This document shows, in pieces, positions 4,559-37,066 of a stretch of 40,929 nucleotides of DNA. The notes below the pieces were generated by a model, which was not told where the DNA came from, made no database searches, and was given only the letters and a program-made list of their open reading frames with translations. How positions within the stretch are numbered: the first letter of the stretch is position 1; the number at the start of each line of letters is the position of its first letter. Source of the stretch: Pigoraptor vietnamica (Eukaryota > Opisthokonta > Filasterea); contig CALSCQ010000190.1 in the NCBI GenBank assembly GCA_943704525.1, positions 1 to 40,929 on the forward strand, in the 5' to 3' direction. A program made the translations under genes and the position numbers.

Positions 4559-5877
4559 TCACACGACTGCCGGCTCCTGCGACGGCGAACTTTGCACGGG
4601 CGCGTTCTCCTTGTTCTCGTCGTCCTTCGCAGTGTCCTTGGTGTGGCGGTGTGCGAACTTGCGCCGCAGCGCCTGCGCAATCAAGTCCGCGGGGTTGGTG
4701 GCCTCGCGCTTCTCCGGCGGGCGCCGAATGGGGGTGCCGCCTGGCGAGCGCTCGCTCTTTCGCAGCTGCACTTTGCCGAGATCCTTGAGCACGTCGCTCA
4801 TGTTTGGCCCCCTCTGGGATCCTCCTTCGCCATTGACTGTCTTGTTCTGGGGTTACAATCGTGTTAGCAATGAAAAGGCAACCGGGCACGTGCCATGTCC
4901 CACCTTCTTCACAATGACCAGCGGCGCAGGGCCCTTGAAGAGGGGCGGCAGGGGCGGCGGAGGCGGCGGGGGGCCTCCCGGGGCCGGCGGCGCATCGAAG
5001 GCAGGTGCAGGTGCGGACATCTGCGCTGTGACGATCATCGCAATCTGTTCCCGGAGCTTCGCCAGTTCCACCTCGAGGGCCTGTACAATGCGCAACTTGG
5101 GTTAAGACGACTAGTGCCGATGCGACCGTCATTTTCGAGAAAGTGCTTTGAAATAAAGACAGAAATTATCTTGGTTTACACGTGCGACATCACTTTTTGT
5201 GGGAGGAACATTGTGCAGCACCCACCGAAATTTTGGCAGAAGACGGGCTAGGCACGGCGGAGGAGGCCTGCGGCGGCGGGTGGCGCGGCGACAGGCGGGG
5301 CTGTGCAATGTCCTTGTCGGGAGTGGCTACTGCGGGCGACTCGCCTCCAGGCGTGGCGTTGCGCCACACGCGAAAGTTGTGTCGCCGGCGGTCGTTGATA
5401 AACTCCATGTCCGCAAGCGTTGCCACGCATTCGCTCTCTGCGCGCCTTGCAACGCTAAGCAGCTAATACACCTTGCTGTGTTGGGCAGCTTATACGTACC
5501 AGCGGAGCTTGAAGGAAGAGACTTCGATTTTCGCTTTCGCTGTCCATCCCTATTCGCACAATGGGACTGACGGTCAACATATGCGCGCTCCATTGCGTGC
5601 AACCCGCCGTATCTCACCTGAGCTCGAGGATATCTCGGTACTGGCGAGCAGGAACATGCCAATGCACACGCCGCCGAACATCAAGAAACGGCAGCAGGGC
5701 TGCGATGCGCCGCAAAAGGCTCCGTTGGGCAAGAAGACGCCGCCGCTGCGCCGTGCACACGTACTGCGCCGCCGGCGTTAACTGAGCAGCATGATCTGTC
5801 AGAAACAACATCTCAGTGGTAGGGTGGACCGTTGATTCCCTCCACGCGATACACCGCCAGGGCAAGTCGACTTTCAA
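4559..5877 (-). CDS. Mitochondrial fission regulator, MTFR1/MTFR2 family
   Basis: MTFR proteins act at the mitochondrial outer surface, affecting fission and distribution. Five exons: 5877..5618, 5549..5500, 5437..5226, 5080..4904, 4846..4559, about 328 aa (human MTFR1 333). Collinear family features are: a basic N-terminal SLLRRIAALLPFLD, like the SIVRRIG block of MTFR1; CVATLADMEF, like SVASLAD; the helix ALEVELAKLREQIAMIV; a polyproline run (GPPPPPPPLPPLF); NMSDVLKDLGKVQLRKSERS; and ATNPADLIAQALRRKFAHRH, the family signature. The C-terminal half is certain. The first exon and the 50-nt second exon are less so (acceptor AATAG|G chosen for phase), and a start at an internal Met about 23 codons in is possible. 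It is divergent from ARMC1, ATGs 213 bp apart. Confidence 0.85.
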
Positions 5878-6090
5878 CTATGCAACAACCTCTTTACCGC
5901 CGACTTGAAGGAGCGATGTTCAAATTCAAACTGACCAATCAGAGCCCACCCCGCCCCCACTGGTGCTTTGTGATTGGCTGGCCCGCATTTCCCCAAACCA
6001 GTACTTTCGCCTGCAAAAGACTTGCTCTGCTCATGATTCGTGAAGCGATCCTCGAGGAACAGGTAACGTTTCGACTCTGCAGCCAGGAGA
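5878..6090. promoter_or_regulatory. Bidirectional promoter MTFR / ARMC1
   Basis: This 213 bp spacer lies between divergent start codons. It contains two near-perfect NF-Y sites: TGACCAATCAG (CCAAT at 5934-5938) and, on the other strand, AGCCAATCAC (ATTGG at 5973-5977), 39 bp apart. A GC box, CCCCGCCCCC (about 5949-5958), sits between them. There is no TATA box. This arrangement is typical of two-way promoters of housekeeping genes. Confidence 0.6.
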
Positions 6091-7132
6091 ATGGAAGTGC
6101 TCGCCGTCGTCCGGCAGCTGCGCGATCTCGCGGCCAACCCCGACCACCGGGTGTTGATTGTGCGCGACCAGGGCTGCCTGCCGGGCCTCGTGCTCTTCCT
6201 CGACAACGCCGACGGCGAAGTCGTCGCGACGGCACTCGATGCCCTGCGCCTGCTGAGTGAATGCCACGCGAATCGCGCGGTCATGCACGGCGAGCTGGGC
6301 ATGACCGTGTCGCTGCAGGGCATCCTCGACCGGCCCAATTCGGCCGACGGGCGCCTCCACAGCCTCGCGCGGCAGGTGCTCGAGAACATCACCCCCGCCC
6401 CTCGCAAAGCTACGGAGACCGACAGCTTTCATAAGACGTGCGTAGGCCACTGATGGGTCCTTCCCGTGTATCTGTGCGTGTGTCGAAATTGGCAGCTCAC
6501 GCGCCCATTCTGCTTGACACCGCAGGTTGACGCGGAGGCATCCCCAGAACGGCACCGAAGTCGGCACTCCTAACGGACAGTCCTTTTTTGCGGGCCACGC
6601 AAACCGTCGCGCCCACACGATCACGCTGTCAGTGGAAGGTTTGATGGACGTTTTTTCGCGGCAGGCGGTTGAGAGCGCGTTGCTTCGCGTCAAGGGCGTC
6701 GTGTCCTTCACCTTCGAGATGCACCGCGCGCGGGTCGTTGTACGTGCGCGCACGGACGTCGGAGCAGATGCCATTGCGGCCGCCATTCACAAGGGCGCCC
6801 AGATGACGTGCCAGCTGGTGGGTACTGGGTGCATCAAATGGCCCGCGTGTTCAGCCCGCTCACGCGCCCATTTGAACGACCAGGTGAGCAAGAACGAGCG
6901 CGGCGAGGAGGTACTGTCGCCACTGGCTGCCGGTGCGCCTTCTCCCGTCGCAGACAAGGAGAACACCTCTGCCGCCGCGAACGAGCCCGACTATCTCCCC
7001 GAGGACGACAGCGCCGCAGCTCCACGGGAGGCGTCCAAGGGCGCCGTCGCGCGCACCGGCGACAAGGGCAAGGCCGCCGGCGGGTGGCTGAGCTCCTTTG
7101 GTGGCTACATTGCGCGGACACTGTATTGGTGA
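6091..7132 (+). CDS. ARMC1: Armadillo repeat-containing protein 1
   Basis: ARMC1 is a mitochondria-associated adaptor; in human cells it is reported with MTFR proteins, MIRO and the DNAJC11/MIB complex. Three exons: 6091..6437, 6526..6817, 6884..7132, giving 295 aa (human 282). The N-terminal armadillo part is closely conserved: VVRQLRDLAANPDH, VRDQGCLPGLVLFLDN, LRLLSECHANR, HGELGMTVSLQ. The middle HMA-like domain (THTITLSVEGL-type strand, VKGVVSFTFEMHRARVVVR) lacks a CxxC pair. The tail has GEEVLSPL, the near-invariant DYLPEDDS and ends ...LYW, as in human (FYW). The start is at the level where homology begins. Intron 2 (66 nt) is stop-free and in frame. It is convergent with PSMB2, 181 bp between stops. 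Confidence 0.95.
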
Positions 7133-8156: not shown

Positions 8157-8365
8157 GACGTCGGCACAAGCAAACACACGCGCAGAGCGTTGTGGGTGCT
8201 GAGAATAAGATCTCAGATGCACAGCTGGGAAATAAGTTTCCTTGATCACGTGATACAGATATCGAAATCACGTGAAAGGTGTGTAACGTACCTGCGCCGT
8301 AACACCGTTCCTGCTTGTAAGGAGATCCGCCTGCGAGCGTCGCGGGCTGAGAGGCCACCGCCAGC
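8157..8365. promoter_or_regulatory. Bidirectional promoter PSMB2 / spatacsin
   Basis: This 209 bp spacer contains two TCACGTGA palindromes (8246-8253 and 8268-8275) with a 22 bp repeat distance, about two helical turns. They flank GATACAGATATCGAAA. These are bHLH-zip (USF/MITF/TFE-type) sites, and the paired arrangement suggests cooperative binding. No TATA box is evident. Confidence 0.55.
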
Positions 8366-11300
8366 ATGGGGGACGACGCCCCTCTGCCTGTGCGCTTGTG
8401 GGCGTGGCGGCGGGGACAGGCGTCCGCCGTAGCTGCTGCGTCCGAGTGCCACCTTGCGCCCAGCGGCGCCGTGCTTGCCCTCGTGTCGGACAGCGGCGCG
8501 CTGTCGCTGCTGCCTGTGGCGTCGGACGCTGATCCAGTGGCGCTGCCGGTGCCCACTAGACTGTGAGTGGCTTGCGTGAATTTATCCACTGTTGCTCTTT
8601 CAAGGTCTTACGGTCCGTGTGGTGTGTGCGTGCCCTGCAGGCTCGAATGGGTGCCAGCGGGAGAACCCGTCCGTGACGGCCGCGCAGTTGCAGCGGACAT
8701 GTGCGTTGTGGCGGGCCCGCGTGGCCTTTCAGTGCACCGCGTCGATAGCATGAGTGACCCCGTTGCCGTACAGACGCGCGAGCTGCAGCAGCTTGGCACT
8801 CCCTCGGGCGCTGTGTGCGGTGGGTGCAAATTGCGGCGTCCACGTTTACACACGTTCCCGCGCCCAACTTCATTCTTTACCCGTAGCTGTCTCTGCTGCT
8901 GAAGTGGCGCACATCGCGTGCGACGGGAGTGGCTTTGTCGTCGTCGATGCGTCCGGGGCTGTCGCCTGTTGCGAGCTGCGGGGCGAGTGGAGCGCCGTGG
9001 CCGTAACTTCCGCGTTCGCCTTTCCCCTTGTCCCGCTTGCCGTGCGCCTTCGTGGCACTTCCATCTTCTCTCTGGAGCTTGACGGCTCTGTCGGTGAGTT
9101 GCTGGTGCTGACAATGCTTTACGTTTCGCATCCCAATTCTGACTTCGCCCGTGGCCGCGTTTCAGGTGTGCACGACCGCGCTGGCTCGCTGCTGGCTTGG
9201 ATTTCCGCAGCAGAGGCTGTGCCCGGCGGAGGTACGATGAACTGAGCGATTGTGGCCGCTTTTCAGAATTTTCATACAAACGCGCTCTCACCTAGGGTTG
9301 GCACCGACCGCCTTTGACGTGAGTGCCGATGGTGCGACGCTGGCGCTCCTCTGCGACGGCATCGTGTGCGTCGCGGATGTCCTGCGCTGGCGCCGTTCTG
9401 GACAGCGACAGTCGGACGTCGCCTTGGAGCATGCTGCGCCGATTGGCCAATCGCTCATCGACCGTGCGTGGTCGCGCGACGTTGCGCGAGCGAGCCGCCG
9501 AGCGCACCCTGGAGCTGCCGCTGGGCAGCAGCAACCGCGCGTTCTGCGGCTGGGACCCGGAGCTGTCAGCGGCATGGAATTTGCCGGGCCGTTTGTCGCT
9601 GTCCGCCTGAGGGATGCGTCTCAACACGGCCGCCTCGTGCTCTGGGACGCACGGGCACCGGGAGACGAGCGCGCGCCAGGCGTTGCCGTGCTTGCTTTTG
9701 ACGAGCCGTGGCTGCCCGCGCCATGTGCTGGGGTGGCGGCGCCCCTGTTTCTCTCTGCGTCTGGCATCTCGGCGCTCGTGCCTGGCATCACGCAAGGTGG
9801 CGCGATTGACGCCGTCGTAGCCTTTTGCGGAACCCCGGCGGCGGAGGCACTCTGCGCCATCAACGGCTGGGACCGGCGCGCACTTCAGATGCACTCCCTC
9901 GCGACGGGGCTACGCTTCAGGCGCGCCGACGCCGTGGTGGCTGCCCTGCGCGGCCTCGACCCAGACCAGCACGACCTCGCCTTGCGCATGCTGGCAGCGT
10001 CGGCAGCAGAGGAAGGGGGCGGCGCGACGGGGCGCGCTCCCTCCGATTTCGCGGGGCAACTTGCCGGCGTGGCGATGTCGTTTGCGTCGGACACGCTTGC
10101 GCGCGCGTCGCGAGCCGCGCTGCTTTGGCCCGAGAACCCTGATCATCGCGCCCGCCTCACCGCGCTTGCCGGGCACGTGATCGCCCTTCGCAGTGCACTT
10201 GCCGGCACGCGCGCGCCCCAGGCACCGCTTGCGAACAGCGCCAGCGGCAGCCCTGTTGGGCAGACGCCGTCGGTGGGCTGCTCCGCCGATGCCGAGCCGC
10301 TGGCAAAGCGCCTCTCGCGCATCGCAGCCGCGGGGCTTGGCATTGGGACGGGACATTCGCACGCGTCAGACCGCACCGAGTCACAGGCGCGGGTGGTGTC
10401 CTCGGACGCCATGGCGCTGGCGCACAAGCGATGGGAGGGCCTTGACGCGTCAGAAATCGCGCGGTCCGCCGCCCTTGAAGGCGCCCTGGCTCTTGGGCAG
10501 GCCTACATTCGCGCACGCGAGGGTGGGAGTGCCGCGGTGTCGACGATGGGTGCCGTCGCACGCGAGGTGGGCGCGATGGTGCACCGCCTCCTGCGTGGGC
10601 GCCAAATGGACGCCGCAATTGCGGTGCTGCGCAATGCGGGCCTCGACCACGGCGCTGTGCTTCGCGCCGTGTGCATGTCCACCATCTCACGTGACATGCG
10701 CGCCCACGCGTCATCGTCCCCTGCCTTGCGCTCTCGGCTTGGGCCAGATGACACGTCGGCGCTTGCGTTTCTCCAGCGCCTGGAAACATCGCATCCGCCG
10801 GGATCCGTCGCAGGCGCCCTGGCTGCCGCGGGGAAGCGCCTTGTGCGGTGCGAACTGCGATCGTCACGACCAAATACGGGCGCACCCGATGCCGTCCAGA
10901 GGCTGTTCGACGAACCCGCTGACATTGCATCGGTGCTGCCAGACACGCCCGAGGATGCAGGAGACCCGTCCGCTCCGGACACACCGCGCAGCGCTCAATA
11001 CTTTGAGGCCGTCGGGCGGTGGGCGTGTGCGTGGGACGACGAGGCTCGCCAGCGCATAGTGCTCGAGCAGGCTGCCGAGGTGCTGCGCGCTCCCGGGTCG
11101 GAGTGCGATGCCGTGGCGGGCACGCGCGCGTGGTGGGCGTTCCATGCGCCGCGAGCGGATTTGCGGTCGCTAGCAGAGCGCACGCGCCAAGGGGACGTTG
11201 CGGCACTGCTGGCGGATGTGAACGCGACTGTTCTTCCGCCCTTTGTCCGGAAGGAGCTCTGTGCGCGCCTCGTGGTGGGTGGCGTGCTCTCGCCATCCGA

Positions 11301-14300
11301 GGCAAGCGTGCGCTGCGGCGAACCCGCGGCGTTGGTGCGGTTCGCCTGTCTGGCGCTGCCAGTGAATGGTCACGATGAGAGCGCTGCACGCGCCATCGCA
11401 ACGGTCGCCGCTCGCACCCGTGAGAGGGACCTTCCGCTGGCGTTGGAGGCTTGCGTCAGCCTCCTTGCTTTGGATGCGGTGGAGGCGGTGCGGACGCTGG
11501 TGGGCACGCGGGGCGGGGCGCATGCGTGGCTGGAACTCCTGTCTGCCGTTTCGGTGATTGACGTCTCCGCCGATCGCACTAGCGTTACCAGTGCGTGCGC
11601 CGAGTGCACTGCGTTCGTATCGCCGGCGTTTGCGGCTGCGCGCGCATCCGGCGACATGCGCGCATACCTCGACTGGCAGGAGAGCGAGCGGCCGCTTCTG
11701 TCGGTCGCCCTCGTGGCTGTGGGGGCTGGTGACCGCCCCACGCTGCCAGATGCCGTCGCTCGTTCGCACCCCTTTTTGGCGGCGGCGCTGTCGCAGAGGG
11801 ACCGAGCGCCACGTGCACGCGCCGACGGGTCTCTCCTCCACATCCTGCATGCTGTCGGCTCTCAGTTTTCTGAGCAGTTTGACCCCACGCGGGCGCCCAG
11901 CAGCGCTGCAGGCCATTCTGACACTTGCCTGACCCCCCTTGATTTTGTGGCCATGGGCCGACCGAGTCGCGCGTACGAGGCGCACTTGGGCGGCGGCGGT
12001 AGTGTGGGGGCCGGTGGCGTGACTGACCGCGCCGACGTCGCGGTGCGTCGCACGTCTGTGCTGTGTTGGGCGCGTGCGGCTGTAGTGGCGTCCTGCGCGT
12101 CATTCTTTGAGTTGGCTTCGTGGGACGGCTCTGCGCTGCGCGTGGACGCTGCCGCTGTGGCGCGCATCGCAAGGACAGAGGGCGCCGGCGCCGCCGAGTC
12201 GTTTGCCGTCGCAGTCGCCGCCGCCCTTCGCGGAGAGACAGCCATCGATTCCGCCACCATTGCGCGCCTCGAAACCGCCACGCGTGCGATGGTGGCGGGA
12301 AGTGGGCTGCCATCTGCGTCATGGGACGCGGCGCGGTTGTGGCGTCTGCCATATCTCTGCGCGCGGGCGCACGGCGATGCTGGCACGCCATTGCGCTTCA
12401 TGGAGCTGTGCGCGGCGCACGAGGACTGGCTGCTACTTCTTGCGTTTGCGCAGTCGTTGCGGATTCCCGCGGACGCTGTTGTCAACGCCTCGGCGCATGC
12501 ACGCAACGCGGATTGGTGCGAGCACATCCGCGTGTTCATTGACAGTCTCTCCGTCCGTTCGCCCGGCGCGCTGGCTGACCCCCGCCGCGTTCTTATGATG
12601 GCCAGCGACGATCGTTCCCGTGGGCTCCGCGCGACATTTTACAGCAAGGTGGGCCTGGGGTCTCCGCGGCGCGCCTCGGCATCCCTCTCGCCTGGAGACG
12701 CGTCCGCGGCCCCGGAGGCTGAAGCACTCTCGGCATCGATCTATACCGCGCCTCTGGAGCCAGCGCCGCATGCACCGCACCTTTTCGCTCTCGTCGCTGC
12801 CAGTCTTAAGGCGCCGGGCGCCGCTCGTGTTCTCCTGCGACAGGCGCTCATTCATGCGAGGCCGCTGCTGGCAGTGCTGGCGGCGTGCGTGGAGGGTGTT
12901 ACGGCCTTGGAAGCTGCGTGCGCATTTGTTGTGGCTGCGTGTCCGGCGCTCATGGCCTGCGCGGCTGGCGTCGCATCGACGACGGGTGGCGCTTCCCTCG
13001 CCATGCTGGAGGCGCTGGGTGCGGCGCTTGTGCGGCGTGGCAATCTGCGTCCGTTGCAGGATGCGCTTGCCCTCTTCGACCCCAGCCATCCGCTCGTGGA
13101 CTTTGTGCGTTTTGGAGAGCGATTCGTGAAGAGAGATTTCGCCGCGGCGCGCGCTCATCTCGCAGCCTTTGTGGCCGCAGCCGCGCATGCACATGCGACC
13201 AACGCTAATCCCGTGCTGCGCATTGGGGACGTGGACTGGTCGCTTGCGGCTGCTAGGGAGCTTGCCGCCACTCTACTGGACCGTTGTCCTACACGGCACG
13301 AGCGTATGGTTCTCGTCGAAATGCTGTGTTCGAGCGGCTTCGACCCAGCCTACAGACAGCTCCGGGCGGTGCTTCCTGCGCTGGAAGACGCCGGCCTACC
13401 GCCGCGACTGGGACTGGCTGCGGATGCGCGCGGCTCGCTCGGTGGCGGTGGCGACGGCGACGGACTCTCGCACGAGGACATTGCGCTTCGCCGTCTTGCA
13501 CGCTGCGTGGAGCTCTTTGCGGCCTCCCGCCTCTGGCAGAGCGAACGGGCTCGCGTGGCGTTCTGGAACTGGTGCGCTGATGTGATGGACGGCGCTGTTC
13601 GCCCGTCACGAGCGTGCGACTTTTTCGTGGTGCAAGTGGAGCGCGCCCGCCCGGGCCCCGCCAGTTTAGAGCGGGTTGCGCTTCTTCGTCTTGCCGCTGC
13701 ACGCAGCGAGGGCCCCGACGCGGCGGGAAATGCGAGGCTTTCCGGGCGTCTGTGGTTGGCGGCGCTCGCGGCGGGCGTCTCAACACCGCTACCGTCTGCG
13801 ATGCCAGCGGCGAACTTGGGCGAGGCCGCGACGGATGACGAGCGCAACGCCGTTCGTGTTGTCGTTGGGTCAATGCTGCGCGCCGGTGATCAACCTGCTG
13901 CCGAGACAGTCGCAAGGCAATTCGGCTGCTCGGACTTGCCAGAGATCATCGCCTCGCGCGTCGCTCTTCGCGTTGCGTCGTCAGGCTCACTGGCGGATGC
14001 GCTTGCGGACGAGACGCTCTTTGCCGCTCTGCAGGGACTTGGGGTTGACTTGAGCGCCGGCTTTGATTCTCTCGGAGCGGTGTTGCGCGTCTTGGCGAAA
14101 GTCGTACCGACTACCGCAGTAACGTTTGTCCACCGCGTTTCTTGTCTTGTGGACGCGGCGGCGGCGCTCGGTGTCGACTTTGAGAGCGTCGTTCAAATGG
14201 GCCACAGTGCTTGCGTGTCAACTTTTCTTGGCATGAGCGACTCCTTTGCGGTGTGCCGCGCGTACGTGGCGGGCTGCGACGTTCCCGCGCCCGTCGTTGC

Positions 14301-15495
14301 GGATGCCGTTGTCGAAGCGTATCTGCGGGCGTTACGACTATCGCGGTTGCGCCGCGACGGCGACGACGAGCATGAGGGACAGGGAGCTGTCTCGCCGGCT
14401 TGGTCGCAGGCCGACTTTCTCCGCTTTGCCACAGTTTGCCCCGATGTGGCGCTTGTCGGGCGGCGACTTTTGGACGCTGCCAGTCAGCCGTCGGCCGGCT
14501 GGGACGTACCCGGCGAGGCCAATCTTGTCATTCGTGCGCATCAGTGCTTCAGTTTGGCATGCAGCGAGGACGGAATGGCCGCGGTCGTCGCTCACGTGCG
14601 CGCGAGGGTCGATGCATTTGCCACCGCCGGCGAGTATCGGACTCTCGCGAAGATTGCGATGGAAATTCGCCGGTTTCGCGAGACAGAGTGTATCCTCGAC
14701 GCGCTTCTCGGGCACGACCAACTCGAGCTGGTTTTGCGTAAGGCGATGGACAAAAACGGCGTCCCCGAATTTCGCGCGGCCCTCCACGACTATTTGCGCC
14801 GCCGGCATCCGAAAGATACAACTCGCCTGACGATGGTCTTCGCACATTTCAGCATGCTTCGAGAAATCGGCGACATGCTGTCGGAGGAAGCAACAAAGCG
14901 TCTACACGCTATACGGAAGCCAATGTCGACGGCGTCGATGGGCTCTGAGCTCGTGTCGATCATGCGGCTGTTGACCGATGCGGCAGAAAGCTATGTCCGA
15001 GACGACGCGGCTCGGCGTGCAAATAAGTGCGTCGCGTTGGCGCGGCTCATTGGACTGCAACTTCAAGTTGGCGACAGCCTCTGCGTTCTCAACCTCTCAA
15101 CGGCGGAGGCAACGACGGTAATGGCGCAACTTCCACGTTTCTTCGACGCTCTCATCGTTTCGGAGGCGTACGGCGTTTCGGATTGGGTCGGTTCAGTATT
15201 CCAGCAGGCCGTTGTTCTTGGTAATGTGCGGTTCGCTGAAGACTACCTTCTCGCAATGCCGGCACGGGATGCTTTTTTCGTGGAACTCGTCGGTCGTTTC
15301 AAGGGTTCTCTTCAGAAAGTGCAGCAAATGGCGCCGATGCGGCGAATCGTTTCGCTCGTCCCGGACGTACGTCTTCGTTATCGGCTGGCGCGGGATTTAT
15401 CGTTAGACGACGTCGTTGCGTCGCTGTTAGCGTCTCAAAGCGGCTTGATCTTGAAGGACCTCGAAGGAGTCACCAAAGATTGGGGCCCGCAATGA
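8366..15495 (+). CDS. SPG11: Spatacsin (SPG11)
   Basis: Spatacsin works with spastizin and AP-5 at late endosomes/lysosomes and in lysosome re-formation. Five exons: 8366..8562, 8641..8819, 8887..9093, 9166..9231, 9296..15495, giving 2282 aa (human 2443). The N-terminal ~350 residues look like beta-propeller strands (LAPSGAVLALVSDSGALSLL, DGSGFVVVDASGAV). The middle is a long alpha-solenoid rich in Ala. The C-terminal ~320 residues are the conserved spatacsin domain: RAHQCFSLAC, FRETECILDALLGHDQLELVLRK, LHDYLRRRHPKDTTRL, SMLREIGDM, DAAESYVRDDAARRA, FDALIVSEAYGVSDWV and LKDLEG. The last exon is 6.2 kb without an intron, while four introns lie in the first 930 bp. Identity rests mainly on the C-terminal domain. 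Confidence 0.92.
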
Positions 15496-19992: not shown

Positions 19993-22900
19993 TCACTTGA
20001 AGTGGTCAAAGAGGTAGTTTGGCACGTACGCCTCCACCGCCTTGCGACTGATGCTGCCGTAGCGGCAGTAGTCCTCGAGGAACACGAGCCCGTTGACGGC
20101 CTCCGGGGCGAGGTCCAAGGACTTGGCGTCCCTGCACGTGCACGCAACGAGTCAGGCAATGCGCGGGACACACCCTTGACACTGCAGTTTGGGTAACGGA
20201 CCTTGGGCCGACCATGTGGGCGCGGATAAACTGGCCCATGTACGCCAGAAACTCGGTCTGGTGCGCGGCGTGGAACTGCCGCACGAACGTGAGCACGCCG
20301 ACGACAAACGGCGCGCCATCGAGGGGGTCGCTCTTGTTCTTGCTCAGCATGGCGCCTGCGCCGCCCACGCGTCAGACGGGCCCACTGCCAAAGCAGACAG
20401 CGACCATTGCACCCACCGACAGACTTGGTGTACTGCAGCCGCGGCAGCTGGCTTGTCGCGAACAGGGCGTTGATCAGCGACAAGTGCTCGAGCTGTGACG
20501 TCGGCACGTAAATCTTGGAAAAGGTGTCGCCCAGGCCGGCGCTTTCGAGATAGAGGGACAGCTGCGCCATTCAAAAGATAAGCCAATCGCGCACGCTGTC
20601 GCATTCCAGCCCACCACTGCGCACCTCGTACAGGAGGGGGTTGTCGTCGCTGGGGTACGGCAGCGCGGGGTTCTTGTAGTGCGCGTGGATCGCCGCCATG
20701 AGCGAGTCGTTCATCACCGTCAGGCATGAGGCAAGCAGCTTCGAGTCGGCGCGGGCGGACGCGCGGAGTTCGTTCGCGATGAGGCGACGCACCAGCTGGA
20801 TTTGCCCGACACGCATGACGGCGTCGAGGTACACGGACCACAGCTTGGCGCCCTTGGTCGCCGCAACGGGATATATCTGGGTGTGATGCATGCAAATTAA
20901 CCCAAAACTGCCTCAACAACCGATGCAGCGAAAACATGGAAACCCGCAAGAGGGGGGAACAACGCCAACGCCAAACGCACCTTTGCCGGCGCCGCGGGCG
21001 TTTCGGTGGCGGGATCGAGGGCGTGCGCGCACTCGTCAATCATGGCGCGGAGGCCCTTGTCGGCCTTGGTGAAGCGCTTGTACGCGGCCGTGTATGACTG
21101 CATCTCCTTGACGATCATGAAGCACAGAAGGCGGTCCAGGCCCGCGAGGCCAAAGCTCCCAACGGCCCGGTGGAGGCTGCCGAACATCTTGATGTTGACG
21201 AGCTCGCGCGTCGTCTTCGCGTCGTACCACGCGCTCATGGCGTCAATGTAGACGGTGGTGCGCGAGTCGGTGAGGCGCAGAATTTCGCGGGCGAGGCGGC
21301 CGATGAAGTTGACCGACTCGCGGTCGACCGGGGGGAACTTTGGGATGGGGATGGCCGCCGACTGGTACACCGACTGCCAGTCAAAGACCTTGGTCTTCAG
21401 GAAGCTGTTGCACTCCTGCTCCACGTTGTACATCACGATGCGGCTCACTTCCTCCTGCCATATCTTCAGGCCGTAGATGTTCACGTAGTCCTGCGTCGGC
21501 CCTTCGTCAGCAACCCCGTGCACCAGCCAGATGACAAGCGGTGGCACAGCTGCCGCAAGCGCACAGTCGCCATGTTGCTCACCTGGATGTACTCGAACGA
21601 GCGACGGAAGCCGTCCATCTGCGCCGAGAGCACCTCGAGCCGCTTCACCACCTCACTGCCCTTCGCATTCCCAAACACGAGCGTCTGCAAGCAGGCAGAA
21701 CGCGGTTAGGGCACGCTCACTACGCACACAAGCATCATGCAATGGCCGCACGCACCTTGTCCAGCGCGTCGGCGACACGGCGCACGAGCTCCTTTCGGAT
21801 TCCGTCCTCAAGCAGCTGCTTCGGGTCGACCTGAATGATGCCGACGAGCGTCTTCTTCATCGCGAGAATGCCCTCCGTGAACACCGATATCATGTGCGTC
21901 AGGCGCGCCACGCGGTAGCGCTCGCCGAGCTGCGCGTAGTCCCGCATCTTGTCCTTGTCGAGCCGCGTCGGCACCTCCTGCATCTGGTTCGTCTGTATCG
22001 TCACAATCTCGTTGAGAATCTCAAACATCGACTCCGGGACGATTTGGAGGACCTTGCGCACGTACGTCACGAGTTCGCCGGAATAGTACTGCGACACGCT
22101 GTGCAGGTCGGGCGAATTCGCCTGGTTGATGCGCACGAGGGGAAGGTCCAGCGCCGTCGCGAGCTTGAGGAACGTCGCGCGGAGCTTGATGACGATCGAG
22201 GGGTCCGACTTGATCGACGCCTGCATGTACGGCGTGAAGTCGTCGACCGTCTGCCAAGCGTACGAGAGGTCGCCGACAATCTGCATCGTGACGAGCCACT
22301 CCTCCTTGATGTTGATCGTGCGTATCATCTGGTGGAGGTACGAGCGCGTCTCGGCGAGGAACTGCTTGATCTGCAGCGACGTCTCCAGCTGGTGGAATTC
22401 CTGCACCTCCTCCATCGCCTGCATCAGCTGCACGACCTTCCGCCCGGCGCTCGTCGAGTCGGCGTAGTCGAGCGAGCCAATCTGCTTGGCCATCTCGTGG
22501 AACCACGCCTGCAGGTTCTCGTTCTTCTCGACGCGCGTCAGCGGCTTCGTCCCGCTGAAGACGTCGCCGAGCTCCGTCATGCGCTCCACGCCCTCGCGCT
22601 TGCACGTCTCCCAGCGCGCTTGCTTCTGCGCGAGCAGGTCCGAGAACAGCCGCTTGAGCTTAAACTCGTATTGGCCCGTGTTAAGCAGCAGGCCGAAAAG
22701 AGCGCGGGGGTTGTAGTTCAACGCCACGATCGCGTCGCGAATCTTCTTCGCGCGCGGGTGCGTCTCGACAGCGCGCTCGTTGGTGTGGAGCATGAGCCAC
22801 CGGATGGCGACGTTGCATTCCCGCATGCAGTTCATCAGCTTGGGCACGTTGTCGAGCACATATTCCTCGGCGAGCACGCCCTCCGTGAGGTACTTGTCCA

Positions 22901-24333
22901 GCTCCTGCGGTTCAAAATGGGGCAGCATGAGCACGGAAGCGCCCGACAGCGCTCCGAGCGCAGCGCCCTGAAACCCCATCCCACCTTGCTGAGGGACTGG
23001 ACCTTCCCGATGTACTTCTCGGCGAGGCTCTTGACGTTCGCGGGCTCGACCGTGTTGTTGAGCGCCCTGGACGCGGCCTTGTACGGCTCCCAGACCTCCA
23101 TCAGGCTCACCGTCATCCCCATGTAGATCGAGATGATCCAGTTGTCGGGGAAGTGCTTGTCCACAATCTCGCGCATTTTAGACTGCTGGTTGTTCAGCAT
23201 GTCCGGCGCAAAGTACAGAATGACGTAGAGCATCGACGCCTGCGTCGCGAGTGCCGTGCTCCGGTGCTCTGGCAGCGGATACGCGCTGATCTGGTTGTAG
23301 ATGTCGTCCGATCGCAGGCGGCCGATGAGCATGTCGATGAACGTCTCGGGCAGCGGCACGCGCCGAAAGTACTGCTCGGGGTATCCCGCCGGCCGCTTTC
23401 CGCCAGGCACAAAGCCCGTCCCACGCAGCAGCTTGCAGACTTCGTCGATGTTCGCCTCGTTGGCCTGGGCGCCGCGGTACCTGCGACACGGCCGGGATGA
23501 GACAGGCAACAAGACGGGCACGCTGTGGAGCCATAGTCGCATACCTGTTGTACGCGACAAGCATTCTCTCGCGCACAGGGCCCTCCATTTTCGCGTCGAG
23601 TACGAGAAGCATGACGCCATACAGGTATAAAGCCTCGACCTGTGCGGAGGCAGCGGTGGCAGCAAAGGCACGGTATCCCGCATGGCCATGAGCAACGAGC
23701 ATGGACGCACGCACATCGCGCACGCTCACACAATACGCGCACCGCAATCACACCCACACACGCCCACACACATACACACGCCCACACACATATGCACGCC
23801 ACAAAAAACGCACAAAAGACGCACCAGCAGCTGCTTGCCGTCCGTGTTGTGCAGTACAGTCTCGAGTGTTTGCTGGATGAAGACGCCTTCGTCGAGGTCC
23901 TCGAGAAAGTGGGTCAGGTCAATCACATACTTGTACACGCTCTCGAATGCGAGGTAGAAGCGCGTCACGATCTCAATGTGGTTGTCGCGAAACTCCTCGT
24001 CGAGGTCCATGAGGTCCTGCAAAGTGCGACCATCAGGCACAAAGGCACTGCGCCGCACACAACACACGCATAATGGCAGCGCGCACATGTACAACGCTCG
24101 CGCACACTCACCGCCGACGACTCGATCTTGTTGTCGTAGAGCTCCGAGTTTTTGAAGTAGTTGAAGTCGATCAGAATGTCGGTGTACTTGTCGCGATCCT
24201 CCTTCGTCTCGAGGCGAAACACCGGCGGCACATAGTCCGCCAGTCGCAGCAGCTCCGCAATGATCGCATTCCCGCGGCTGACGAGGCGCAAAATCGTCTG
24301 CCCGCACGCGTTGTTTTCCGCGAGAAAGTCCAT
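19993..24333 (-). CDS. WASHC5: Strumpellin, WASH complex subunit 5
   Basis: Strumpellin is the large scaffold of the WASH complex, which drives Arp2/3 actin assembly on endosomes. Eleven exons: 24333..24112, 24016..23825, 23639..23545, 23480..22985, 22904..21756, 21684..21583, 21490..20981, 20876..20625, 20561..20417, 20355..20202, 20131..19993, giving 1151 aa (human 1159). Similarity is high from end to end: [109 protein letters not shown]-type block, [34 protein letters not shown] and the C-terminal [14 protein letters not shown]. All phases close. It is convergent with the AIMP3-like gene (42 bp between stops) and divergent from UBE2W. Confidence 0.98.
23726..23802. repeat. CA-rich imperfect repeat in strumpellin intron 2
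   Basis: Within the intron 23824..23640, repeated units of the type CCCACACACATACACACG form an imperfect CA-rich tract. Two units about 30 bp apart are nearly identical. Confidence 0.6.
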
Positions 24334-30508: not shown

Positions 30509-32442
30509 TTACACATTCTTGCGGCAGGTCAACAGTAGGCTGGCGAAGACGAGGGCGACGAACGCAACCACGATGAGCGCGATGGACGTGTTCAGCACGT
30601 GCGTCTCCTTCTCGTCGGCCTCGGCGAGGATGGCCTCGCAGTCGGCCGTCGTGCGCTCCTCGGATAGTGACGGCGCACCGCACACGGGAAACCCCTTGGG
30701 AATCGCCGGCAGCTTATCGGGCGCGTCCGCGAAGATCACGGCCATGCCGCGCGCTAGGTCAAAGTCGACGTGGCAGTGAAACAACCAGTAACCGGGGTTG
30801 TTCGCGACAAAGGCGAAAGCGACCCACGAGTACCCCGGCACCGAGAACGAGTCCTTGATCGGCGGGTCGACGAGGTTCAGCTCGGCCACAGACGATGCAT
30901 TGTAGCGGGTGCCGTTGCGGCCGACACCCAGCAGCCACGCGCCGTGCCCGTGGAGGTGGAAGGGGTGCTCAAGGTAGTCGGCGTAGTTCTCAAGGACGAC
31001 AAACGCCACCTGCTTCTCGCTCAACGCGTATATCGGCAGCGGAGTTTCGTTCTCCGACGCCGCGTAAAGCGACTCGGCGGGCTTGGCGAACGTGAGCGGG
31101 CGCACCGGCTGCTCGTACGGCCTGTTGTTGATGACGAAGCGTCCCTCGTCGTTACGAGCCAGCGTGAGCTTGATCGGCATCTCCACAGAGAGGCCCGACG
31201 GCAGCTTCGCGGTGGACGAGAAGGCGTGGAGGCTCGAAAAGTCCGCCGCGCCGTCCCTCGGCGGATCCGTGGCGTTCAGCGCGGCGGCAATGGCAGGGTC
31301 CGTCGAGAGGGGCGTCGGCGCCGAGGGAAAGCGCAGCGCCGCGTACGTCGTGCCAAACTGGTCAATGTGGCCCACCACCGCACGCACGAGGACGCTGCGG
31401 CCCGTGATCGACGCATTCGCGCGAACAAGCACGTCGTAGCGCTCGCCAATCGAGACCTTCAGGCTCGACACTTCCTTGGGCTTGACGTAGCGGCCGTCCG
31501 AGGAGATGACCGTCATCGTGTGGCTGTCGATCGAGAGGACAAAGGGGAACTGCGAGCCCGCATTCACAATGCGGAAGCGGTAGAGCTTTCCCGGAGTCAC
31601 GTCGAAGATAGCCACGTTGTCGATCGTGTTGGGCGACTGGCAGCCGAATTCGCGGTTGTGGAAGTTCCAGCGAAGGCGCTGGCAGTGCGAAATGCCCTTG
31701 CCGTTGATCAGCGCCGACGTGAACTCGGCCGTGCTGCGGCCCCACGCCTGCACCCACCCATTGTCAGCGTACGCAGCCCATGAGTGCGCGCATCGTTGCT
31801 GCGGCGCCAGGCACATCTCAGCGACTCACCACAGTGTCGGCCCCGTTGGTGAGGTTGAGAAACGCGAAGTCGGCGGGAAGGTGGTCCCAGTCGTTGATGA
31901 ACAGCATGTATTCGGCGAAGTACTGGTCGCGATAGGGGTTCGCGGGATCGTCGACGATCAGCAGCCCCGCAAGGCCGTCCCCGTACTGCACGCCGTGGTG
32001 CGAGTGGTCTGCAGGAGCACAAGCAGGCGTCACTCTCAGCGCACCGGGCTGCATGCACATACGACAGACACCCACACCAAAAGGTGCCGGCTTCCTCGGC
32101 CTTGAAGCGGTAGGTGAACGACTCGCCAGGGCTAATGGGGCACTGCGTGAGCTGCGAGACGCCGTCCATGAACGGCTGCCCAGTCATGCTCATGCCGTGC
32201 CAGTGCACCGTCGTGCCCTCTCCGAGCAGCCGGTTGTTGACGCGCACGACGACGTCGTCGCCCTTGTCCACGCGGATGAGCGGGCCGGGGTACTGCCCGT
32301 TGTACACCTTGACGATTTTGCCGTAGCCGTCCGGCCATAGCACTGTGTCCGTCACGTTCAGCTCATAGGAGCGCACCGCTGCATCGCTGGGGCGCAGCAC
32401 GGAAAGCACCGCAAGCGCACAGAGCAGCCACACCGGCGCCAT
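30509..32442 (-). CDS. Membrane-anchored multicopper oxidase (laccase/Fet3-like)
   Basis: Three exons, 32442..32076, 32008..31830 and 31747..30509, give 594 aa. There is a signal peptide (MAPVWLLCALAVLSVLRPSDA), three cupredoxin domains and one C-terminal transmembrane helix (TSIALIVVAFVALVFASLLL) with a short basic tail. This type I topology resembles Fet3. Copper motifs: VHWHGM and WYHSHHG in domain 1; HPFHLHGHG and FHCHVDFDLARGM in domain 3. All eight trinuclear-centre His positions appear present and the type-1 Cys is in HCH. However, the type-1 His five residues after that Cys is Asp (HCHVDFD instead of HCHxxxH), while the axial Met is kept. Several N-glycosylation sequons occur. The substrate (iron or phenolics) cannot be told. 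It is divergent from mL53. Confidence 0.9.
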
Positions 32443-32761
32443 CCTCGCGCCGGACGCCCCAAACACACAGCCCAGAAGAAGACAATGCTCTGAAATGAAG
32501 TGTGCGCCAAGAGAAACAGGCGAGGCACGGGCCACAAAAACGACGTGTGCCAAACGACGTGCGTGGGTTAGAATGAATGAGGAGTCACTGTTGCTGTTGT
32601 GTGTGAGAGGAGGGTGACGGACCGCAGCTGTGGGCAAAGCCACACATCCGGGGTGTTGATTCGCATCCGGGGTGTGGATTGTGTGCTTCGTGAAAAGGAA
32701 CGGCGAGAGAGAGAAGAGAACAGACGTCGCACAGCTGTGTGCGTGTGCGCGGCGTGTCACA
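32443..32761. promoter_or_regulatory. Divergent intergenic region multicopper oxidase / mL53
   Basis: This 319 bp spacer has a 19-bp tandem duplication with two mismatches in the second copy, unit CATCCGGGGTGTTGATTCG (32645-32663 and 32664-32682). No E-box or CCAAT box stands out. Confidence 0.4.
32645..32682. repeat. 19-bp tandem duplication
   Basis: There are two adjacent 19-bp copies beginning CATCCGGGGTGT, located about 80-115 bp upstream of the mL53 start codon. Confidence 0.75.
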
Positions 32762-33242
32762 ATGGCACCGCCGTTGAAACTCAATGCGAACTTTCTCAAC
32801 AAGGTCCGCGTGGCATTCTCGGCGTGGGACCGCAATTCTGTCTGCGCAAGGTATGCACTCATTGGGGGGGAACATGGACAAGATTGTCGAACGACTCGAG
32901 TGACCCATGCCAACGCCGCTTGTCGCAGGGAATTCCTGCAGTACGCCCGCTGCCGCATTGCGTCGGGGAACCCCCGCTGTGTCGTGGAGGGCGCTGTGAA
33001 GCACGACGCCTCTGAGCCCATTGTCGAAGTCACGTACGGTGCGTTTGCCGCATGTTTTTGCCATTCGCTGGCTTTATTGCGACTACGAGCTGACTGATGC
33101 CATGTCACATGCAGCTGACGGATCGCAGCAGGTGTTTCGCACGCGGGAACACAAGGCCACGCCGCTGATTAAGCTCGTGGCGGCAAAGACACGAGAGCTT
33201 GAACTACGCGCTCAGACGAAGGCGCCGGCCGGCAAACACTGA
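32762..33242 (+). CDS. MRPL53: Mitochondrial large ribosomal subunit protein mL53
   Basis: Three exons, 32762..32850, 32929..33038 and 33115..33242, give 108 aa (human 112). The sequence follows the family: a start with LNKVRVAFSAWDRNSVCARE (human VKQVRVQFCPFEKNVESTR), FLQYARCRI, NPRCVVEGAVKHDASEPIVEV (human [21 protein letters not shown]) and YADGSQQVFRTREHKATPLI. The fold is thioredoxin-like, as in other L51/S25/CI-B8 relatives. It should act in the mitochondrial ribosome. Its stop is 79 bp from the stop of the convergent large unknown gene. Confidence 0.85.
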
Positions 33243-33321: not shown

Positions 33322-36300
33322 TCAGAGCAGCACGCTCGGCCGCTGCCGCGAGTCGCCGCGCACAAGGTACGAGTCGCCGAGCACCCAGTGTTCCTGGTGG
33401 CCGCCTATGTCCAGCCGGTTGAGCACCCGGAAGACGCTCGAGCTCGTGTCGACGACGCCCGCGCGCGCACGCATGTGGCCGAGCAGGTCGAGGTCCTCGG
33501 GCATGTAGACCGGGACGACCTTGGAAAAGGGGTCGGGCCATGTGGCGTCGTCCCGCACAAACTTCTCGCCGATAAAGCGGCGAAACTTTGTGTTGAGGCC
33601 CTCGGTGAGCCGCGCGTACTCCTCGTACGTCATCCAGCAGTCCACCTTGGAAGAGACCTCGCCCCACCCGCCCGTCGACAGCCGCACGATCGACGGCTTG
33701 CTGCTTGCCGCCGCCGCCACCGACACGCGCCGCCGCCGCTGCTTGGACGCCTTTCGGTACGCGTGCTTCGTGTCGATAATCTCCATCGACGGCTCCTCGG
33801 GCTCGGCGATCTTGATGTTAATGGGCACGGGCGACTCGAGCAGCTCGAGGCCGGCCTGTCGCAGGCGCTGACGGATCTCGCGGAGACGCCGGTCTGACGG
33901 GGGCAGGATGCCTGTGGCGACGGGGAAGCGAAACGGTCAGCACATTCGGCCGTCTCAAGCGCACTTTGCCAACACTCACCCTTCACAAGCGCATCCTCCG
34001 AAATGGTTGACAGTCCCTTCTCTTCGGCAAGAGTGAGGGCAGACTCAAGCTCTCGCTCCAGCCGCACGCGGTGCTGGAAGAGCAACGGGTACGTCTCGGC
34101 CAGTGTGGAGGTGAACGGCACCTCGCCGGCGCGCGCACTGAAGCGCAGCCGAAATCCCTTCGATTTGGCCACTGAGGCGCGCCCGCCAACGCTCGCCCGT
34201 CCCCGGAGACCGCCGCGTGGCGCCGGAGCCAACCGCGCACGCGGCTGCGCAAACACAGACGCCCTCCGATCCGGCACCGCAGTTCCCACAGCCGGCGCGG
34301 CCGAGGGCTCGCCCTGCGCAGGCGCCGCCGATGTGGACGGCGCGGGCGGTGCTGCAGGGGCCGCGCTCCCGTCGCTGACGGGCGGGAGGAGGGAGGGTCG
34401 CGGCATGTGCTTTGTCTTGCCGGCGAGGTTCGTGAAGCTGCCGCGGAGACTACCGAACGGCCGGCGCGGCTTCGGGGGCGGCGGAGCGTCCGGTGGCTGC
34501 GGTGCAGACGTCGCTGGCTGCACTGCGCTCGCAGCACCAGCCGCGGGCACCGCGTCAGCAGCTGCGACGGGTTCCGGAGACTTTGCGTCCTTTGGCGCAC
34601 TCGACGGTCGCGGTGACCGCGTGCCAGACGCCACCGGGCTGAGGGCGTTCTTCACCGGCGTCTGCGAGCGGTTCGCGCCCGCATCCGGCGCCTGCGGAGG
34701 TGCGTCGGGCTTGCCGGCCTGTTGCAGTTCGAGGCGCTGAAGGGACGAGAGCGTGAGGGGAGGGAGATGCGACGGCGGCTTCTCCTCCTGCCCCTGCTTC
34801 TCCTGTTCTTCGGCGATCATTTCGCCGACCATCGCCGCCAGCAGCGGGTCCTGCACCAGGAGCACGTCCACACGGCGCATGCCAGGCGGGGCGTCGCGGT
34901 CGGAAGACGTCGTCGTGTCCGGCGCACGCGGCGGCGCGCTGCCCTCGCCCTCCGCGCACGGCGGGGGGGAAGCGGACGCGAGCTCCGCCCCAAATCCCTC
35001 GAGGTTCATCGACGATCCCTGCACGGGCGAGGCGACCGAGGCAATCGAGCTCAGCGCCGCAAGGGACGTCCGCGACGACGACGACAGCGCGATGGACCCC
35101 CGCCCCTGGGAGGCGCGCGAAAACCGCGTGTTCCTGCGCGTCGCCTGCTGCGCCTTCTTGTTCGCCGCAGCAGACGCGGCCAGCAGCTGTGTCAGGCGAT
35201 CTCTCGACAGACGCAGCGTCGCCTTGATGCCATACTCAATCTCAACCGGCCGCTCATTTTGCATGCGAATTTCGAGGGGATAAATCTGCCGCGTCTTGGG
35301 CAGGGACCCGTCGATGCCCACCGCGGGGAATCCGTACTTTGCGACGTAAGCCTCGTGCAGTTCGCGCAGGCGGCGGTCGATGGCGCGCCGCTCGGCCTTC
35401 TCCGGGTTGCTCGGGGGCAGGTAGGGGTTGCCCAGGCGCGACCACTCGAGCAGCGTTGCCTGGTGCAGCTTCTCCGCCTCGATCGCCGCCTGGTTGTTGA
35501 GCATGGCGACAAACTCGCGCTCCTGCGACGACAGCGCCATCTTCTCGGCCTTGTCCATCAGCGCGTCATAGTTGTTGAAAGGCCGAAAGTTGTACAGCCG
35601 CTCGGCCAGCATGGGCGCCGAGATGAATATGTGCCGCAGAATCAGAATGAACGTGTCCCGCGTGCTCTTGTTCAGCCCCTGGATCGTCGGAAGCAGAAAT
35701 TGGTCGCCCCCCGTCGTCGACACGGATGTCTGCGACAGCGACCGCCGCATGCGCTGGATCGACCGCTTGCGCAGCGCCGCCTGCAGCGCCGCCTGCGTCT
35801 GCGCCTGCTGCGCCTGAAGGTCCTGCTGCGCCTGACGCACCGACTTCGACATGCGCCGCAGCTCCGCGTGTTCGCGTGCCTCGGCCTCGATCTTCTTCAT
35901 CCACGCCGTCTTCTGGTGCCGCCCGCCCTTCCGCGCGCGCACCTTGGTCGGCGGCGGCGCGGCGGGCTTCGACTTGGCCTGCAGTCGCTGGAGGTGCGCC
36001 TCCTCCAGCGCCGAGCGGTCCTTGTGCAGCAGCCACTCCTCCGAGAGGCCCAGGGAATCGAGGTCCTTGGCGAGCCGCCGCCGCGCGTCCAACCAATCGG
36101 TGAACTCGGCCGACTCGAGCGGCAGCTGGTCGTCCTCCACCCACGGCGGGGGCTCGTACGGCGGCGCCTGCAGCGGTTGCGACGCGAGCAGCGCCTGTTG
36201 GTGCTGCATGAGGTGCAGCTCCTTCAGCTGCTGCAGCGTCATGACGACGGGCGGCGGGCGGTGCTTCTTGCGCGCGGGTTGCGCGGGCGCCGCGGCGGGC

Positions 36301-36851
36301 TTCTCGGCCTCCACGGGCTCCGGCGGCAGCGGACGCGTCTCAATGTCAGCCGCCCTGTGCTCCTCGGTCTCTGCTTCTCGCGGCATGGCGGGTGCGTGGA
36401 TGAGCCGCTGGTGGAAGCGGAACGTGCGCTCGGCCATCCGCTTGATGAGCGACTGGTGGAGGTCGCGCGCCTTGTAGCGCAGCACCACCCTCTCTGGCGG
36501 CGGCGGAAGCCCATCGTTCAGCCATCGTTCGACATCAAAGAGATGCTCCAGGCACTCGCCAATGTCGTCCCCAAAAACCACAATCGCGTCCGTGTCGGCC
36601 TCGGCAGGTGTCTGCGGCTTGGACGGCGAGATGGAGCGGCTGCGCGGGTGCCGCTGCGACCCGCGCCTGTATGCCGAGCCGAGCGGTGAGCGCCCGCCGA
36701 CTGTTGCGCCGCCCCGAGCGACCGTGAGCGATGCACGCCTGGGCAGCCGAGGGACTGCGGACGGGCCAGCCGCCGCAGGCAATCCCGCCAGACCCACCGA
36801 CGGCACGGGGGCGATCAGGGCGTGCGCCCCGCCGCGCGCCTCCCGCCCCAT
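33322..36851 (-). CDS. Unrecognised large protein with coiled coil and disordered region
   Basis: Two exons, 36851..33980 and 33911..33322, give 1153 aa. Residues 1-75 are low-complexity Arg/Ser/Pro. About residues 85-150 (VFGDDIGECLEHLFDVERWL; RYKARDLHQSLIKRMAERTF) look structured. About 300-375 is a charged, Gln-rich coiled coil (ELRRMSKSVRQAQQDLQAQQ). About 385-560 is the best-looking globular part (FILILRHIFISAPMLAERLY; EWSRLGNPYLPPSNPEKAER; YGFPAVGIDGSLPKTRQIYP). About 570-900 is Pro/Ala/Ser-rich and probably disordered. The C-terminal ~250 residues (CWMTYEEYARLTEGLNTKF; MPEDLDLLGHMRARAGV) appear folded again. I do not recognise the family. Beyond the donor at 33979 the frame stays open but out of phase with exon 2. 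Confidence 0.6.
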
Positions 36852-37066
36852 GTGTCTCCACTCTCGGGCGGACTCACTAACTACTACCGCAACATGCTGC
36901 TATGCTTGCGTGTTTAACAGAAGGGTGTGAAAACGCAGCGCTCAAGTCTTGTGCGGCGAGCGTCAATACGCACTCATTTCAACACAGTCGCCCAATATGG
37001 GTCGCTATGGAGATGCCAAATTTAGGCCTTCACGTGATGTCACGTGAATAATTCTGTGAATTCCAG
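36852..37066. promoter_or_regulatory. Intergenic region with tandem TCACGTGA sites
   Basis: This 215 bp lies upstream of the large unknown gene and just past the stop of the kinase fusion gene. Two TCACGTGA palindromes sit 10 bp apart (37030-37037 and 37040-37047), one helical turn, and fall about 180 bp upstream of the unknown gene's ATG. Confidence 0.5.

Follow-up and report, generated by a model that had tools for sequence, protein, structure and literature searches.

Divergent ARMC1 and MTFR-family genes joined by a short spacer in a eukaryotic, likely protist, genomic window

The ARMC1 and MTFR proteins of mammals are the closest described counterpart of the gene pair considered here, which lies in a stretch of genomic DNA of 40,929 bases with 63% guanine plus cytosine (GC); this whole stretch is called the window. 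The two proteins act jointly in positioning mitochondria. In human cells the helical domain of ARMC1 is the part that binds MTFR, and ARMC1 brings MTFR into an assembly with MIRO (PMC11980836), as a preliminary description of the window had stated in speaking of a bridge from MTFR to MIRO. The ARMC1 substitution D37R disrupts co-purification of MTFR, MIRO and TMEM11, human MTFR levels depend on ARMC1, and the ARMC1 copy number is approximately that of the MTFR and MIRO paralogues summed (PMC11980836). MTFRs dock onto MIRO through the motifs FADV, FADI or LADI (PMC10897228). This ARMC1–MTFR mechanism was published in 2025 from work on human cells (PMC11980836), and an earlier paper had mentioned an interactome hit linking ARMC1 with MTFR1L (PMC6808451).

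Published tables support a common neighbourhood of ARMC1 and MTFR1 in mammals. A cattle gene list has the order CYP7B1, LOC104974032, ARMC1, MTFR1, LOC104974034, PDE7A (PMC7601430). On cattle chromosome 14 (BTA14) ARMC1 is placed at 31.70-31.72 Mb and PDE7A at 31.80-31.91 Mb (PMC10486602), which leaves little space for additional genes between them. A human deletion of about 0.6 Mb, chr8:66,140,254-66,753,892, is reported with ARMC1 and MTFR1 as the only genes given (PMC4074351), and one human single-nucleotide polymorphism is attributed to both (PMC1995621). The preliminary description had human ARMC1 and MTFR1 as divergent neighbours; the neighbourhood agrees with the cattle (PMC7601430) and human (PMC4074351, PMC1995621) reports, and the divergent orientation in human is presumed. 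Searches of the literature for the coordinates and strand of the two human genes returned nothing useful. Other pairs of partner genes are known to be kept head-to-head. The integrin alpha and beta genes of Capsaspora and Corallochytrium are likewise binding partners in unicellular holozoans, but they are other genes, concern cell adhesion rather than mitochondria and have a likely holozoan origin (PMC5560861). Divergent pairs of the Hsp60/Hsp10 type likewise join partners and are conserved across species, but these are already catalogued (PMC2871058).

The window holds an MTFR-family gene (minus strand, 5811 to 4559) that adjoins an ARMC1 gene (plus strand, 6091 to 7132), and the two are transcribed divergently from either side of a 279 bp spacer. 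The features of the locus are as follows.

4559..5811, minus strand: MTFR-family gene, spliced model with 5 exons (5811-5618, 5566-5500, 5435-5226, 5080-4904, 4846-4559), 311 amino acids
5812..6090: spacer of 279 bp between the start codons at 5811 (minus) and 6091 (plus), 53.8% GC, likely a bidirectional promoter
5933..5941, plus strand: NF-Y-type CCAAT site GACCAATCA, from a pattern search
5951..5956, plus strand: GC box CCGCCC
5979-5971, minus strand: NF-Y-type CCAAT site AGCCAATCA, opposite in orientation to the site at 5933..5941, from a pattern search
6091..7132, plus strand: ARMC1 gene, spliced model with 3 exons (6091-6437, 6526-6817, 6884-7132), 295 amino acids
6587..6817, plus strand: HMA-like segment of ARMC1, from a single-sequence AlphaFold2 model and fold matches

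Both gene models were built from splice signals, reading frame and homology. All six introns start with GT and end with AG, and they range from 51 to 145 nt: 51, 64, 145 and 57 nt in the MTFR-family gene, where a plausible alternative splice form of intron 2 would add two residues, and 88 and 66 nt in ARMC1. Positions 4559 and 7132 are the exact stop-codon ends of the two genes. Because its genes are interrupted by short introns the window is eukaryotic, and its host is likely a protist. The preliminary description had proposed an adjacent, divergent MTFR-family and ARMC1 pair, and the spliced models, Pfam and pairwise BLASTP bear this out. Its start codon at 5877, which put the two ATGs 213 bp apart, had to be rejected: there is no ATG at that position, an in-frame stop occupies 5880-5878 and the frame has no ATG before the one at 5811, so that the spacer from ATG to ATG measures 279 bp and not 213.

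What identifies the two genes? The MTFR-family protein matches the Pfam profile PF05308 (Mito_fiss_reg, Mitochondrial fission regulator) with 50.6 bits against a cut-off of 26.3 and an expectation value (E) of 4e-13, the match joining protein residues 29-245 to profile positions 12-244 of 244. The preliminary description had allowed that the gene on the 4559 side might not be an MTFR homologue; with PF05308 passed, the homology stands. For closer comparison, provisional human ARMC1, MTFR1, MTFR2 and MTFR1L sequences were used, and the Pfam results are independent of them. These provisional sequences agree with published numbering at ARMC1 D27, D37, D49, D239, E243, D244, E245 and F275 and MTFR2 K29, R35 and R39 (PMC11980836), at MTFR2 LRF 91-93, MTFR1 ARL 91-93 and MTFR1L L62 and ARV 77-79 (PMC10897228), and at MTFR1L S103 and S238 (PMC9651865); the mouse residue numbers of PMC10897228 were left out of this check. 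The closest of the provisional human sequences to the MTFR-family protein is MTFR2 (BLASTP E 1.9e-18 unfiltered, 7.8e-16 with low-complexity filtering), followed by MTFR1 (5.9e-14 and 7.7e-11) and MTFR1L (8e-4 and 0.011). Features common to the protein and the provisional sequences include an RS-hydrophobic-hydrophobic-R block, an [FL]AD motif, the helix LEVELAKLREQIAMIV and a proline run, together with two C-terminal blocks, PNM..VLKDL.KV.LR..ERSPGG.PI and NPADLIAQALRRKFA. The MIRO-binding [F/L]AD motif is present as LADM at residues 94-97, aligned to FADI, FADV and LADI of the provisional human sequences. Judged by its sequence, the gene from 5811 to 4559 is an MTFR homologue.

The ARMC1 protein of the window is 41.8% identical to the provisional human ARMC1 sequence over 294 amino acids (pairwise BLASTP, E 3.5e-75 unfiltered, 5.3e-64 filtered). 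It unites, in the order of ARMC1, an Arm-type N-terminal helical domain, an HMA-like domain and a conserved C-terminal segment, whose residues GWLSSFGGYIARTLYW are similar to SWLSTAANFLSRSFYW of the provisional human sequence. The Arm domain at 17-56 scores 20.3 bits, just below the Pfam cut-off of 20.6, and the HMA domain at 149-205 scores 21.6 bits, just below its cut-off of 24.8. Single-sequence AlphaFold2 modelled the segment encoded at 6587-6817 as beta-alpha-beta-beta-alpha (mean predicted local distance difference test (pLDDT) 72.1, predicted template modelling score (pTM) 0.56). HMA-type domains or metallochaperones make up eight of the ten top fold matches of this model, with probabilities up to 1.00 and no E at or below 0.001. 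The corresponding model of the helical domain was poor (mean pLDDT 50.7) and was set aside. A PDB sequence search with the protein returned 37 sequences, nearly all of them designed armadillo or engineered proteins and no ARMC1 chain, and NCBIfam gave only copper-chaperone-type matches far below their cut-offs. Alignment and domain order together identify the gene at 6091-7132 as an ARMC1 homologue.

The residues that make contacts in the human complex can be located in both proteins. D37 and D49, which contact MTFR, are retained in the window ARMC1, and D27 is replaced by N. The DNAJC11-contact residues D239/E243/D244/E245 read D/E/D/D, all four acidic, and F275 is Y. K29/R35/R39 of MTFR2, which contact TMEM11, read R/R/R in the MTFR-family protein.

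With 279 bp between start codons, the spacer falls within the range of bidirectional promoters, divergent genes less than 1 kb apart. The two NF-Y sites and the GC box that the preliminary description placed between the ATGs were located at 5933-5941, 5979-5971 and 5951-5956; the former are predicted NF-Y binding sites in what is likely a bidirectional promoter. When the spacer was randomised 20,000 times under a first-order model, two RRCCAATSR sites arose in 0.085% of the resulting sequences. Over the whole window, RRCCAATSR was seen six times against 4.6 expected, two of the six falling in the spacer, and CCAAT is not enriched (49 seen, 51 expected); with both totals ordinary, only the local pair of sites is noteworthy.

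Armc1 and an Mtfr gene both belong to a set of only 30 genes that, by the criteria of a 2009 study, bee and vertebrates have in common but that went undetected in three dipterans, Tribolium, Bombyx and C. elegans (PMC2656531), and this joint absence lends independent support to the two acting as a unit. The mammalian ARMC1 and MTFR1 genes belong to the same two families, are neighbours in the cattle and human tables, and encode proteins with the same domain layout and most of the checked contacts. They differ from the window pair in the spacer, which in human would be about 10 kb, versus 279 bp; moreover, human has three MTFR paralogues and the window one MTFR gene.

How expected would such a pair be? 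If 10,000 genes are assumed, a given pair of genes would stand side by side in divergent order by chance with a probability of about 5e-5, and about 0.0012 neighbour pairs of the window would by chance also be neighbours in human, assuming 12 window pairs and 20,000 human genes; both figures leave the number of windows read out of account. Conserved divergent pairs tend towards functional relation, and in Metazoa the conservation of divergent pairs is highest where the two genes lie some 10 kb apart (PMC2871058).

We think it probable that ARMC1 and MTFR are an ancient partner pair, produced together from one spacer, whose linkage has been kept since the common ancestor with animals. We infer that the spacer acts as a shared promoter, that the two genes are co-expressed and that their products form a complex in the host; the linkage itself would be of common ancestry, retained from that ancestor rather than established independently. 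Divergent transcription of ARMC1 and MTFR from the short spacer would make the two subunits of an outer-mitochondrial-membrane complex together. The helical domain of ARMC1 would then bind and stabilise MTFR, as in human cells, while its HMA-like domain and the LADM motif of MTFR would dock on MIRO, and the ARMC1 C-terminus would anchor the assembly. The resulting complex may tune the position of mitochondria within the cell. Most likely the pairing already existed in the common ancestor of the host and animals and would have been kept in both, with a longer spacer in mammals. That MTFR depends on ARMC1 for its stability, at nearly matched copy numbers as in human cells, would be a reasonable cause for one promoter. 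Somewhat less firmly, we incline towards seeing the head-to-head linkage as a single pre-animal feature kept by selection for co-producing an assembly factor and its unstable client.

A series of observations weighs against the ancient partner pair. The RRCCAATSR test was post hoc, the pattern having been picked after the sites were noticed, and the spatacsin frame contains one other place in the window, 9440-9453, where two sites, here overlapping, fall within 279 bp. A short divergent spacer is found a second time, the 209 bp between a PSMB2-like gene and an apparent spatacsin start; the unusual feature is thus the identity of the paired genes, and head-to-head spacing in itself is ordinary in this window. 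Human ARMC1, on the minus strand, presumably diverges from MTFR1, on the plus strand, across a gap of about 10 kb. A gap of this presumed size is not a classical bidirectional promoter, so it is doubtful that the human genes share a short promoter. The segment by which human MTFRs add a strand to MIRO (ARL, LRF, ARV) is not clearly kept in the window protein: RVW aligns with LRF of MTFR2, with FRV one residue earlier. Contact residues are not significantly conserved above background in a random-position control: five of eight ARMC1 contact sites are identical, which 24% of random sets equal; six of seven acidic ARMC1 contact sites are acidic, equalled by 9.6% of random acidic sets; and all three basic MTFR contact sites are basic, equalled by 5.7% of random basic triples. 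A working ARMC1–MTFR complex of the window proteins would therefore agree with these contacts, but special conservation of the contact residues is unsupported. In viral contigs, 2 pattern stretches matched the ARMC1 protein, 38 its alignment and 108 that of MTFR, and in prokaryotic genome contigs 29 matched the ARMC1 alignment and 85 that of MTFR; none was confirmed in either collection, as expected of viruses and prokaryotes. A randomisation over 64 species gives a chance of 0.002-0.01 that a same-orientation pair recurs in at least two species (PMC2871058), which is less extreme than 5e-5. Finally, unicellular Holozoa and animals seldom have microsynteny in common (PMC5560861), so a retained pair is less expected a priori.

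Could the same arrangement have come about in another way? Selection for matched expression might have brought the genes together twice, once in the lineage of the host and once, separately, in that of vertebrates or animals. The very different spacers, 279 bp here and presumably about 10 kb in human, would fit such a history, as would the general scrambling of gene order between unicellular relatives and animals (PMC5560861), and convergent origin has been raised for one ribosomal protein pair (PMC2871058). We nonetheless consider two origins unlikely, given that, in a genome taken to hold 10,000 genes, a chance divergent meeting of two specific genes has a probability of about 5e-5 and that a single retained linkage requires fewer events. 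A coincidence of a compact genome, with no shared regulation and a match with mammals by luck, appears more improbable still. The genome is compact, another head-to-head neighbour pair with a similar spacer lies in the window, the pair was picked from one window among an unknown number read, and recurrence by chance reaches 0.002-0.01 over 64 species (PMC2871058). Luck of this kind has to be set against the roughly 0.0012 neighbour pairs expected in common with human under the assumed gene numbers and 12 window pairs, and against the fact that ARMC1 and MTFR are direct binding partners (PMC11980836) and are jointly missing in several insects (PMC2656531).

We also see little prospect that an unusually compact animal, instead of a protist, is the source of the window, in which case the linkage would be animal-wide microsynteny only. 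ARMC1 homologues are described 'throughout the animal kingdom' (PMC6808451), and the roughly spliced PSMB2-like protein is best matched by PDB chains named PSMB2 (about 218 bits), the next chain scoring 189 and presumed yeast chains about 150, all of which would suit an animal. The 63% GC, introns of 51-145 nt and an uninterrupted spatacsin frame of 2,084 codons fit a compact protist better.

What would an ancient ARMC1–MTFR pair imply? If our interpretation is true, few retained linkages between unrelated proteins that bind each other directly would be older, and the loss of both genes from flies, beetle, moth and nematode would mirror this linkage. A protist copy of the pair with a MIRO motif would place the origin of the module before that of animals, and linkage together with joint loss would amount to a genetic argument that ARMC1 and MTFR work as a unit. 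Were the ancestral interpretation right, the apparent spread would be unusually wide for a conserved divergent pair. For studies of microsynteny, the pair would be an example in which the joint retention of partner genes can be tested.

Among the matches listed, no literature passage on the two genes names the head-to-head arrangement. PMC11980836 contains no match for 'synten', 'adjacent' or 'chromosome', and literature searches on ARMC1 and evolution found ARMC1 only in that paper. Searches on synteny, head-to-head genes or protists listed no ARMC1 among their matches, which is weak evidence of absence. The metazoan part of the linkage may already be in a published pair list; 'armc' and 'chppr' have no match in the main text of PMC2871058.

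The other genes of the window add some observations of their own. The second short divergent spacer (8157-8365, 209 bp) separates the PSMB2-like proteasome gene (minus strand, ATG 8156) from the apparent spatacsin start (plus strand, ATG 8366) and carries two TCACGTGA E-box sites, near 8246 and 8268. The C-terminus of the spatacsin (SPG11-type) gene occupies a stop-free frame of 2,084 codons at 9241-15495 on the plus strand (Pfam Spatacsin_C, E 2.6e-75), and a strumpellin (WASH complex) gene with several exons lies at 20900-23177 on the minus strand, two of its exons matching Pfam with E 3.1e-183 and 7.6e-65. The spatacsin family is linked to hereditary spastic paraplegia, and with spatacsin and strumpellin two families of this disease are found in one window. 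Further along, all on the minus strand, are a multicopper oxidase gene at 30512-33168, with Cu-oxidase, Cu-oxidase_2 and Cu-oxidase_3 matches across two frames, and a 1,089-codon frame at 33633-36899, in which residues 410-569 match OHCU decarboxylase (E 7.6e-11) amid surroundings that look low in complexity by eye. The last is a 946-codon frame at 37070-39907, which ends in a C-terminal protein kinase domain preceded by an N-terminal part of more than 600 residues in which Pfam finds no match at E <=0.01.

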